Translations under genes and position numbers: made by a program | DNA from: Phalacrocorax aristotelis | Lineage: Eukaryota > Chordata > Aves > Suliformes > Phalacrocoracidae | Direction of reading: 5' to 3' | Length of the DNA: 64,000 nt | Assembly: GCF_949628215.1 (NCBI RefSeq) | Contig: NC_134286.1 | Span: 2,046,001-2,110,000, forward strand | Shown: positions 36,601 to 48,600 of the stretch, piece after piece | Layout of the letters: every line of letters begins with the position of its first letter | How positions within the stretch are numbered: position 1 is the stretch's first letter | The notes under the pieces: model-generated | The model's database searches: none | The model's input: the letters and a program-made list of their open reading frames with translations, nothing else | Told to the model about the DNA's origin: nothing

Positions 36601-39600
36601 CACAGTTGCCTGCAATTTATAGATGCAATTTGCTCTATCTTTTGGTTATTTCTAATAAGATAATTCTTACCAGACTGAATTGCAGTAGATGAGAAAGAGA
36701 TGTCAGTTCAGATGTGATCTGGGTTAAGGTGCTTGAATGTCTGAGGCTGAAATCCAAGCTCAGAGGTTCTTGTGCAGCTGAGAAGTGTTGGAAGAATGAT
36801 GTGAAAGGAAGATGGTGTAGATACCCGGATTGCTTTGTTTTTATCAACTGTATTGAAGGGAAATGACTTGAATGACTTGATTATAAGATTGTGAACATTT
36901 CTGAGAGTTTGTATAGAAAGATCTGATTTGCAGATGCTGGAAGGCAAGTTGCAGTTACTGATGCTTTTCTTCTTTTCAGGCGACCATTGGAATTGATTTC
37001 CTGTCAAAAACAATGTATCTTGAAGACCGCACGGTAAGGGAGGCGTCCGGGTGATAGCATGGCAACTGCAGTCATGGGAGCAGCAGCTACTGCGCGTGCT
37101 GTTCCGCCTGGCCGTTCCTCCGACGGCTGCTGAAATCCCACAGCAGCCTTCCGAGGGGCAGCCTTTGTTGAGTCAAACCACTGACCCCCACTCTCCTGTT
37201 TCTGGTACCCGTTAATATCAGATAACCTCTAGAACGAAGTCAAAATCTTTCATGCAAAATTGGGTCAAGCTAATATCCATATCCCAGGCAATGGGCTGTC
37301 TGCTATATGTACTTTAGGCGTAGTTTGCTCCCAGAATTTGCAGCTCTGCCTCTGAGATTATCAGTATAAATGGGTCTGAGCAGACCCCAGGCATTTCCAT
37401 GTCCTGAAGTCATTACGACACCACTGGTAACGATGACTCCCTCCTCATAGAAAGGCTCCTTTTGTAACACAGTTCTGATGTACAGTTAATAAAGCAATTT
37501 TGGATTTAGCTTGCATGCTATTCCTTTTTGCATAGAGATCCCTTACATCCCTCTCCTGTCTTTCAGTATTTGTCTTTTCATTAGTTCATGTTTTGCTAGT
37601 ACTTGCCTTTTTTGCTAGTTTTCCTGCTGCCTGGGAAGTATTACACTGTCGGGGGGAGGAAGGGGCCAGTGGTGCGAGGGAAGCCCTTTGTGCTGCTTTG
37701 GCTCTGTTGCTTCTGAAGAAGCCTCAGCCTGGTGCGTGTGGTGAGTTCCCTGAGTGCTTCTCTGCCATCTTCCCAGTGATTCAGTATTAGACAAGACCTT
37801 GTTTAATCTTTGTTCGAGATAAACTACTTGGATAATTTCCTGCAATGGTACTGGCAGTGGCAGAAGAAGGAAAAGATCTTGGGATTTCTGCCTGATGCCC
37901 GTGAAGGCAAGTTGGAATGCCTGTGTGCTGTGTTCAGCAGTGTGGTCTTGATTCCTTACGCTTGTGTAGGTCAGGATGTCATTCACCCCCGGCCTGCTAT
38001 CCAGAAAATACTGTTTTCTTTCCAGTGTTGGATATGCTGTTAGCTTTCCTGATTATGTAAGTGGTCCACAGAGCCTGTTTAAATAACAGGGGTGTTGAAT
38101 GTAGATAGGAGGAGGCAGAAATACAGGCACACAAGCTAGGAAGATTCAGACATTGAAATAATTTCTCTGGTATGGCTCATGCTGTATTTTGCAATAGGCT
38201 TTGACTGCTATGCTTCAGATGAATAATGCTGAGCCTCTAACTGTGGCGTATGCTTTGGCATATTTGCTATGTCCTTACACCAAATAATACATCCTGAAAT
38301 TATACCTGTGCCAGGTGACACAGTTCTAAATACAGCCTGGGTAGCATGTGCTAGCCAGCAGAAGGGACAAATAGCTGTAGAGTTGGGTTCTTCCACACCA
38401 CCTCCTGTAGCCTCCCAAAGCGGGCGCCTGGCAGCGTGCCGTTCCCAGCATGTTGCCAGTGTGTTGGGACCCGTGGTGTGAAGTGAACTGGGGCCATGAG
38501 AGCCCCATCCTCAATGCCGACTGTTCGGCTGCCAGCTCTGTTACAGCTACAACCTTGTTCTTGAAAGACCAAGTAGTTATTTCCTTTACTGTGTCTCGAT
38601 ATCTTCCCAGACTTGTTGGATTTAAGGCCAAGATAAGCCAGTCTAGAGGGTGTTTGTTGTCCTGGCTTGTACCCCACTACTTCAGTACTTGACAGCAGGC
38701 TTTCCAGAGGATTCATCGCAGGGGGGGTGATGATGTCCTTACGGTTAGGAGTGACCACATATAGCTAGCTGCAGGCTGCTTGTGTGCCCGCTATAGCCAG
38801 AGTCCTGATGTGGCAGGATGCACGGAGGTATGTATGCCTATTTCCCTTGTTAGCAGATGGTGTGAGGAGGTATTTTAGGGATATCTTGGTTTTATGATTA
38901 AATGGAAGAATGTGTTCATGTGTGCGAGTTATTAATGGGTGTGTGAAAGGAGGGAGGTTTCTCAGATGTGCTAGGCTGAGGTTAGTGTGAGAACGCGGTT
39001 GGAAGTATTGTTGGCTCTTTTCACGTTTCTGTTCCTTTTCAACTTTCCTTTTGTTGCATTATTTGTTGCCTTGCAATTTTTTAATTTTTATTTTTTATTT
39101 CACATGAGTTTTGGTTTTGTTTTCCATTTTCCTGCTCTTGCCCTTCCTTCTTCCCCTACACTTTTCCGTTTCCCAGATCAGGCTGCAGCTGTGGGACACA
39201 GCCGGCCAGGAGAGGTTCCGCAGCCTCATTCCCAGCTACATCCGTGACTCTGCTGTGGCTGTCATTGTCTTTGACGTTACAAGTAGGTATTGAGCCGGAG
39301 TGCCTGCAGGGACCTTGCTTTTAACACGTACCTTTTATGCATTGGAAGTGCTGGTGTTATCTGAAAGGAGCTAAGATAGGCCATCGGCCCCAGGACCGTA
39401 GGTGTTTAATGAGCTGAGGGGAGGTAGCAGAGCATCTTCCCTCACAAGCAATGGTAACTCCATCCCATAATCCAGAAATGGGAGGACTAGAAAACTCTGG
39501 TCTGCTCAAAGCCTCAAATTATGGAAGTGGTGTGCAGAGGATTGGCAGGTGGGTGAAGTGGGGTTGTGACTTCTCGTGTGCCTGCTGGTTAGAACGAAAG

Positions 39601-45600: not shown

Positions 45601-48600
45601 TGGCATTTAGATTTGAGGCTTTTGAATTTCTATCAAAATCCAGTCTCGTGTAGAACTGGAAAACCCACTGGGCTAATTTCTGCCTTGGATTATTTCCTGA
45701 TAGTATGTAAGTGAAGCAGGGTGTGGGTGCAGGACAGCTGGCCCGGCACTGCCCTAAGAATGAAAAATACCATAAAATTGTTTGAAATACAGCTGCAGTT
45801 GAAGTTCATGGAGCGCTAGAAATTCTTATTTTAGAACTTTAATGTAAGTGGCAGTAGTCCTGGTCTGGGCTAGAATTTGGGGTTATGGTGGTATCCAGGT
45901 ATCAGTAAAAGAAGCTGCTTTGCCTTTCTTTTAAAAGGAAGTTAGATTTGTGTTAGGCTGAAATACTGAGCCTTTTAAGACTGGACAAAGCCACAGTGTT
46001 GGCCTGAGCTTGGTCCCATTTTTTGAAATAGAATACAGCTATTGGAAGCCATTCATCCTATGGTAAAAAACAAGCGATGATGTAAGTTAAGTTCCGAGGC
46101 CAAAAACCTGAACTAAAAATAGCACTGTTCTTATTTGGGGCAGCCTGTTAAGTTTTTCTTTCCTCTTAATGTTTCTTCAGTTGGTGGCTGGTTTTTTGTG
46201 TGTGTTTTTTTTTTTCCCCCTGCAGTTTCTTTTTATCATGCCTGGACTATTTTTCTTTGTTTTGGTTTTTCTTTTCCGTGATTTGTTCTCATTGCTGTAG
46301 ACAGGTTTCTGTAGAGGAGGGTGAGAGAAAAGCCCAAGAACTGAATATGATGTGTATTGAAACCAGTGCTAAAGCAGGATATAATGTGAAGCAGGTATGT
46401 ACAGGGTATTGATCAGAGATGTACTTGCAGGTGCTTGCTTGCAGGGAGCAGCCTAGCACTTGCTGTTGCACCGTACTTGCTGCTGGAGCCTTTCTGAAAC
46501 CTTTCAGTAACCTCACGGATTTCTCTTCTCTTGACTTTGGGAAACTGCTTTTTGTATCAGGTGCAGCGTATGGGGATTCTTCCTTCCCCTGAGGAAGCTG
46601 TGAACGAGGCTCAAATGTACTGCACAAACTTCATCCTGCGCTGGTCATTCATTATTAATAGTCCGAAGTCCAGGCATTCCCTGGGTAACTTGGCAAAGGT
46701 TGTTTCATTCTTAGCTGGAGGACCTGGGGGTCTTGAAGACTGGGACCTCCTGAGGTCTCCGTTGCTGGACTACGTGGTCTCGTAAGGGGTGGTGAAGCAG
46801 CCCTCTGTTGAAGGGCGTCTCAGTCACAGCCGTCTCTAACTCTTCCTGTCTGTTCTTCCTTTCTGTCTTTCTGCTTCTGTTTGCATCTTTGTCCAGGCAA
46901 ATCACTACAGAAGAAGGTGAACAGAGAGCCAAAGAGCTGAATGTGATGTTTATTGAGACCAGTGCAAAGACTGGATACAATGTGAAACAGGTAGATCGAT
47001 GTTCTGTTCTAAAGACAGGAAATCCGTACTTTACCGCTCTGTATGTGGGAGGATTAAGCTGCTGGATAGGGTTCATGTTCCATCAGATGTTTACTTGTGG
47101 TGTTTACTGTCAACCACTGAAATGCTTCTTCTTGCCCAATGCTCACGGTTGCTGCTTGATCTAGTGGAGGCTCCTTTCCTGTCAAGCCAATGATTCCTCA
47201 TTAAAGCTAAGCAAACTTACCTTGAAAGAGAGTGTAAAAACTGCATGTGCCGAGGGATAGGGGTGCCGCTATTTTGTGCAGCCAGGCAAATGTAATCTTA
47301 TACATTCCCTTTGCTTTTGTTAACAGTTAACGCACTGTTTTCTAAAATCAGTGTTGACATCAGTCGGGATACCTGCGTATGCTGATGCACTAGAGAAGAA
47401 GTTCTGGCTCCTGTTTGCATGCCACAGCAGGAAATCTTAGGTTACTTGGAAGGGATCTCTGGAGATGGTCTAGGCCAACCCTTGTGCTCAGAGCAGGCTG
47501 CCCAGAACTGACTCCAGTTGGGTTTTGAATATCTCAAAGGATAGAGACTCCATCTCTCCAGGCAGCCTGTCACAGTGTTTGACTAGCCGTACAGTAAAAA
47601 AATTTTCAAACTTTTCTCTTATGTTTAAACATAATTTCTTGTATTTCAGTTTGTGCCCATTGCATCTTGCTATAAGCTTGTGATCTGACTCTCCACTAGT
47701 TCAGGGATCGTTCTGGAGCATGACAGAACTTGGGGAGCAAGACAGCCATAAGGGCCAGGGATCTGCAGGGAGCATAAGTACTACTGGTGTCACCTGGCTG
47801 GTTGGGAGAACCTCGCAATGGGATTAGGAGACTTTGGGTTTGGTTTTCTTTTTGGCTGTTCTGGCTTGAATCCGCTTTAATCTTTGGTTCTAGCTTACCA
47901 TTGCTTTATTTGCCCAGCGGGTGTTTGCAGTGGGAACTTGTGTGACTAAAAAGACGCTAACTGCAGCACCTTGCCACTACCTCAGTGGCTTGATTTTCCA
48001 CGTAACACCATTTGGAGGGGTGGATGAGAAGCCCCTGGCAAGCTACTGTGAGAAAAATCGTTAGCTGGTGATTCCTCTAGTTCTTTCTGCAGCACTTTTC
48101 ACCAGACTGCCTAGCAGCATCTGTGTTGTGTTAGCTGCTGCACTGATGTCGGCAGGAGGAGCTCTAAGCATTGACTTGAAAACTTATGCAAAACCATTTT
48201 CTGTGTTTTATGGGGATATGGTAGTCCTTCCCAGCTGGAGCACATCCTTAATAGCTTAAATGCAGCTCACTTCAGCCAGCTGTTCCGCTCACAAATGGCT
48301 GTTTTGCAGCAGGACTGAACTGAAAGGATGGGTTGTAGAATCTGTTATTCCATAAAATTCTTAAACCTTCAATCTCTTGCAAGGTTACTCATGAGGAATC
48401 CCGAGCTGTGCACTGTAACATCGCTGCGTGCAAAAGCAGCTGAGGCTGGAAACGGTCAATGACACACTGATGGAGTGCAGGAGGGAATTGTTCTGTGTGT
48501 CCCTAGAACTGTTACTCATGAACTCCGTGTTGTGTTCAAGCAGAAACAAGTGAAATAAAACTGTTTTGTAGGCATTGCATAACTTCTTTAACAAAACCTG

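Follow-up and report, generated by a model that had tools for sequence, protein, structure and literature searches.

The question raised by this stretch of the Phalacrocorax aristotelis genome is whether a single small GTPase gene can specify four proteins by drawing on one of two exons at each of two positions, and, if so, which gene it is and how old the arrangement might be. The window (the whole stretch of DNA analyzed, 64,000 nucleotides, nt) is C11:2046001-2110000 of a 1.279-Gb assembly, where C11, like C1 and C7 below, is our label for a contig. We think it quite likely, judging from the sequence, that the gene is the ortholog of RAB41, a member of the Rab6 family of GTPases, and that it carries two tandem-duplicated exon pairs whose members are used as alternatives; we infer that each transcript takes a single exon 4 and a single exon 6.

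Exon pairs and reading frame

The Rab gene has eight exon positions on the + strand (33682 -> 49449), two of which, 4 and 6, offer alternatives. Two copies of exon 4 (106 nt each) and two of exon 6 (94 nt each) are present, and all four members have intact frames and GT-AG splice sites. A first-pass annotation of this DNA had given coordinates, lengths (106/106 and 94/94 nt), and splice sites for exons 4a/4b and 6a/6b, all of which are correct to the base. The gene model is as follows, a slash marking the exon-intron boundary in donors.

33682..33763, + strand: exon 1 (coding part), from translated search and gene model
35254..35312, + strand: exon 2, from translated search and gene model
36980..37033, + strand: exon 3, from translated search and gene model
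39177..39282, + strand: exon 4a, RAB6A'-like at two sites, donor CAA/GTAGGT
43161..43266, + strand: exon 4b, RAB6A/RAB6B-like at the same two sites, donor CAA/GTGAGT
43532..43643, + strand: exon 5, from gene model
46301..46394, + strand: exon 6a, RAB6A/fly-Rab6-like, donor CAG/GTATGT
46897..46990, + strand: exon 6b, RAB6B-like, donor CAG/GTAGAT
48780..48846, + strand: exon 7, donor GTATCCTT, U12-type by consensus
49385..49449, + strand: exon 8 with the stop, protein C-terminus CSC, from gene model

The members of both pairs are homologous neighboring exons of equal length and phase, and neither length is a multiple of three. Sixteen uses of the two pairs are possible (none, first, second, or both members of each), and four of them stay in frame: the combinations of one exon 4 with one exon 6, each of which gives a 639-nt open frame, stop included, and a 212-residue Rab protein. 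The sequence supports the first-pass proposal that the frame enforces the choice and allows four proteins; the accompanying statement that exactly one member of each pair must be used holds as an argument from frame, not from reads. Mis-spliced products would lose the frame. By the 50-nt rule, 10 of the 12 frame-broken products, with a stop more than 50 nt ahead of the last junction, would go to nonsense-mediated decay (NMD); the remaining two, in which exon 6 is fully skipped and one exon 4 is used, have their stop in the last exon and are not NMD targets by that rule. When both members of a pair are included, the frame shifts and stops arise 137-375 nt ahead of the last junction, as would be expected if the pairs were mainly an on/off switch in which double inclusion lowers expression through NMD and the protein differences are minor. 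A pure switch would have no need, however, of residue differences that match those between paralogs and a known isoform (described below), and we regard this explanation as very improbable.

Members 4a and 4b, which lie 3,878 nt apart, are identical at 90/106 nt and, among complete codons, at 29/35; 6a and 6b, separated by 502 nt, share 69/94 nt and 22/31 codons. A repeat finder recovers the exon-4 pair (111 nt, 86%) and misses the exon-6 pair, which was recovered by translated search. Similarity between the flanking sequences within each pair is close to background (29/80 nt upstream and 29/80 downstream for pair 4, 28 and 29 of 80 nt for pair 6), which rules out an assembly duplicate as the source of the pairs.

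Identity of the gene

Membership in the Rab6 family is evident from the sequence match, the G motifs, and the C-terminal CSC; among 12 listed PDB chains the nine best are Rab6, Rab6A, or Rab6B, with E values of 2e-65 or lower. The neighbors of the gene in the window are these.

2885-4048, - strand: frame of a P2Y-type receptor
About 28.0-29.3 kb, upstream of the Rab gene: arrestin exons, from a PDB match
Downstream of the Rab gene, - strand: PDZ gene, best PDB match 1wi2
Downstream of the Rab gene, + strand: KIF4

The arrestin scores about equally against beta-arrestin-1 and cone arrestin in the PDB. We name it ARR3 and take the PDZ gene to be PDZD11; the order at human Xq13 is P2RY4, ARR3, RAB41, PDZD11, KIF4A, and a search of open PMC text for these genes together found nothing useful. 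The window gene lies where RAB41 would lie, between ARR3 and PDZD11-KIF4A, with the arrestin upstream and the PDZ (-) and KIF4 (+) genes downstream. Very GC-rich tandem repeats occupy 59128-59519, between the divergent starts of the latter two genes.

The first-pass annotation had compared the gene with human RAB6A. In this genome RAB6A is a relative at a separate locus (C1:1.996-2.057 Mb), where the peptides of exons 3, 5, and 6 are RAB6A-identical, and the neighborhood identifies the window gene as RAB41. High protein similarity would favor the view that the gene is RAB6A itself; because of the separate RAB6A locus on another contig and the RAB41 neighbors, we find that view scarcely credible. 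In the readable part of the RAB6A locus, exon 6 occurs once and is of type 6a; the short interval in which exon 4 would fall is given as N, and the readable letters show no exon 4. A RAB6B-like locus was not found in this genome by three protein searches (150/193, 75/75, and 121/121 candidates scored) and one DNA search, a result with which loss and an assembly gap are both compatible; the distinctness of the window gene from RAB6B rests on neighborhood. A search of viral contigs for relatives returned one Rab-like locus at 38% identity, which was not used, and Rfam gave no match. Intron 7 (48847-49384) has the donor GTATCCTT and CTTAAC near the acceptor in both RAB41 and RAB6A (C1), a pattern that we take to be U12-type (minor spliceosome) and kept in both paralogs.

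The surroundings of RAB6A resemble those of the window gene. Among the 107 of 230 candidates that were scored, the P2Y paralog closest to the window receptor (59%) maps to C1:2.39 Mb, and another (43%) to C1:2.36 Mb; the closest arrestin paralog (73%, or 68% by exon) is at C1:1.33 Mb. RAB6A (C1:2.0 Mb) is thus flanked by the closest P2Y and arrestin paralogs, within 0.7 Mb. Paralogs of P2Y receptor, arrestin, and Rab6 are linked both at 2885-49449 and at C1:1.33-2.39 Mb. It seems likely that these two regions form a paralogon produced by genome duplication, and since their neighborhoods match, RAB6A and the window gene are probably ohnologs from the early vertebrate genome duplications.

Splice signals and choice of exon

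Donor strengths, scored with an approximate weight matrix, differ within each pair: 4a (6.66) is weaker than 4b (9.11), and 6b (6.2) is weaker than 6a (9.74). The donor of constitutive exon 5 (6.3) is as weak as that of 6b. Two features flank exon 4b.

43105..43141, + strand: TC-rich tract upstream of exon 4b, a possible PTB site and also a simple repeat (microsatellite)
43303..43308, + strand: TGCATG, 36 nt downstream of exon 4b

We take TGCATG to be an RBFOX-type motif. An upstream TC tract with a downstream TGCATG is the layout of exons repressed by PTB and activated by RBFOX. Steric blocking and a mismatch of U2 and U12 sites were ruled out as the exclusion device, given spacings of 3,878 and 502 nt and ordinary GT-AG sites at all four exons. 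With blocking by a short intron and a U2/U12 mismatch both unlikely, the selector is likely to be trans-acting regulation, perhaps by PTB and RBFOX at 4b.

The acceptors offer a weak lead. Their AG exclusion zones measure 68 nt (4a), 71 nt (4b), 75 nt (6a), and 67 nt (6b), against 22-31 nt at the gene's other five acceptors (exact rank P 0.008, a post hoc test); against 18 controls (five here, six in RAB6A, and seven other acceptors) the exact rank P is 0.001, also post hoc. One control, RAB6A exon 2 (zone 72), exceeds three of the four alternative exons, and the next controls reach 64, 56, and 52. A value of at least 67 is attained by 3.0% of the gene's 1,054 AGs. These values ignore AGs within 12 nt of the acceptor, a rule without which 4b scores 3 owing to a second CAG. 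Of 10 control anchors in other genes, three lacked an AG within 9 nt and were dropped, and a further one offered a choice of two acceptors (39 or 41), of which 39 was used. Enrichment for alternative splicing is reported in PMC1431707 for AG exclusion zones of 100 nt or more. Zones of at least 100 nt, our mark of a distant branch point, occur at none of the four exons (67-75 nt).

Relatives of the exon members and known systems

The members were compared with PDB chains of RAB6A, RAB6A', RAB6B, and one Rab6, counting sites with one outgroup; by their residues we take 1yzq and 4dkx to be RAB6A', and 2y8e is taken as Drosophila Rab6. Exons 6a and 6b differ at 9 of 32 residues. At five of the nine, 6b agrees with RAB6B and 6a with RAB6A and fly Rab6, and the reverse pattern occurs at none; three of the remaining differences are unique to 6a and one is uninformative. 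Identity of 6b is 30/32 to RAB6B and 26/32 to RAB6A; that of 6a is 28/32 to RAB6A and 22/32 to RAB6B. Exons 4a and 4b differ at 6 of 36 residues: 4a shares two of them with RAB6A' and has three to itself, and the sixth is a change in 4b. RAB6A' and RAB6A differ at three sites in exon 4, and at two of these, which we take to be human residues 62 and 87, 4a has the RAB6A' states (I and A) and 4b the RAB6A/RAB6B-like ones (V and T). The members of a pair thus group with different paralogs or isoforms, by five of nine differences in exon 6 and two of six in exon 4, with none against in either.

G3 does sit in one pair and G5 in the other, as the first-pass annotation stated; the motifs (DTAGQE and ETSAK) are identical within pairs, however, and the differences lie around them. 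The choice at pair 4 would change residues at both ends of the exon, making it RAB6A'-like or RAB6A/RAB6B-like with a constant G3/switch II core, and the choice at pair 6 would change the alpha4 region and the residues beside G5, making it RAB6A-like or RAB6B-like.

Between 6a and 6b, 13.5 of 19.2 synonymous and 10.5 of 73.8 nonsynonymous sites have changed, a synonymous divergence (dS) of about 2, near saturation, with a nonsynonymous divergence (dN) of 0.158. Against exon 6 of RAB6A in the same genome, 6a has 16.5/19.2 synonymous and 4.5/73.8 nonsynonymous changes (dS saturated, dN 0.064). Because synonymous sites are near saturation and the protein is conserved, these counts mark 6a/6b as an old, constrained pair, each member of which has been maintained at the protein level over a very long period. 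An open frame is by itself weak evidence, since 42-63% of neutral simulations keep one; an open frame together with the observed protein identity was obtained in 0.04-0.8% of runs. These figures bear on the alternative that a pair includes an unused relic, 4a and 6a being the likeliest candidates, and that fewer than four proteins are made. The weaker donors of 4a and 6b, the three unique residues in each of 4a and 6a, and the ease with which frames stay open all lend it something, but the sites of all four members are intact, protein has been conserved across near-saturated synonymous divergence both in 6a/6b and in 6a against RAB6A, and a constitutive exon manages with a donor as weak as that of 6b. 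We consider a relic rather improbable.

The vertebrate Rab6 paralogs probably split after both duplications had taken place, a statement that the substitution counts make firmer for exon 6 than for exon 4. RAB41 would then have kept both alternative exon 6 copies of an early vertebrate Rab6, with 6a kept by RAB6A and 6b by RAB6B. A fuller scenario, to which we would give slightly less than an even chance, is that the vertebrate Rab6 preceding the duplications made four proteins, after which pair 4 and 6a survived in RAB6A, 4b and 6b in RAB6B, and all four exons in RAB41. The difference between RAB6A and RAB6B at these sites would then be a fossilized splice choice, the 4b+6b form of RAB41 could supply a RAB6B-type protein in a genome where no RAB6B locus was found, and the 4a+6b form would be one not known from human RAB6A or RAB6B.

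Several points weigh against this account of the gene. The second-best P2Y paralog (45%, 107 of 230 candidates scored) is on C7 rather than C1. The N stretch at the exon 4 site of RAB6A puts the pair of that gene outside a DNA-level comparison. Exons 4a and 6a carry three unique changes each, and at 46353-46355, right before IETSAK, 6a has C where the other compared Rab6 sequences have F. The regulatory motifs come from one sequence, and the TC tract is a microsatellite; the support as a whole comes from one genome. Finally, 4a and 4b (9.5/26.8 synonymous and 6.5/78.2 nonsynonymous changes, dN 0.088) have a dS of 0.48, low for a pair that predates the vertebrate genome duplications. Exons 4a (39214-39244) and 4b (43198-43228) have an identical 31-nt core, and their ends differ, as if the exons had been partly converted. 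This core points either to gene conversion or to a more recent duplication in which two residues converged, and because either could explain the low dS and the core, the age of pair 4 in RAB41 is less firm. If the second holds, pair 4 would be specific to its lineage and would have acquired two RAB6A' residues by convergence, and the exon-6 pair alone would be ancient. The contrast in dS with 6a/6b speaks for this, as does the limited extent of RAB6A' sharing (2/6 differences); on the other side, 4a shares two of the three RAB6A'/RAB6A differences in the exon, and the mismatches fall outside the identical core, as partial gene conversion leaves them. We judge the younger origin unlikely.

If our reading of an old RAB41 with two alternative pairs is correct, the tasks of two human genes, RAB6A and RAB6B, are still carried out by splicing in one gene, and the model in which isoforms become paralogs could be tested in a basic GTPase of Golgi traffic. 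The isoforms would also be natural chimeras for mapping the residues that set effector choice in Rab6. Tandem mutually exclusive exons are a known mechanism. The combination found here, for which we found no report in open PMC text, probably preserves an ancestral state that was split between RAB6A and RAB6B.

Mammalian RAB41 (RAB6D) is like the window gene in neighborhood and in its relationship to Rab6; the human protein is more divergent. RAB41 is termed human- or primate-specific (PMC7818423), reported in primates and dolphin only (PMC3192815), and listed among human X genes, with a unitary pseudogene as its pig counterpart (PMC4691746). Three protein-coding isoforms are given for human RAB41 (PMC9714508), and zebrafish rab41 is noted for isoform usage that changes during development (PMC5690287), the exons being unspecified in the passages of both. 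Together with the zebrafish annotation and the pig pseudogene, the present locus argues for an old origin of RAB41 among vertebrates and against its being new in primates.

The exon-4 pair is of a known kind, the RAB6A/RAB6A' type of human and mouse: the same exon and protein region are involved, and 4b/4a reproduce two of the three residue differences between RAB6A and RAB6A'. The window pair differs in belonging to RAB41, in having its members 3,878 nt apart, and in being combined with a second pair. A RAB6A substitution event common to human and mouse is mentioned in PMC1950890, and rab6a is differentially spliced in a reef fish (PMC8933327) and has brain-specific alternative forms in trout (PMC8321248), with the exons unspecified in the passages of each. 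For the exon-6 pair no report was found in open PMC text, where a minority of matches was followed up, which is consistent with the first-pass remark that a second pair had not been described; database annotation may already contain these transcripts. RAB6 is not named in the main text of PMC9741552, PMC4465641, or PMC5740500.

A close counterpart to the exon-6 pair is found in the separate genes RAB6A and RAB6B: five of the nine 6a/6b differences are RAB6A/RAB6B differences, whereas the window gene holds both versions. Substitution of tandem duplicated exons with loss of the alternate exon in sister paralogs is reported for calcium channels and relatives of FYN (PMC9741552). In those cases, as here, one paralog keeps one exon and another keeps the other; the difference is that here a third paralog keeps both.

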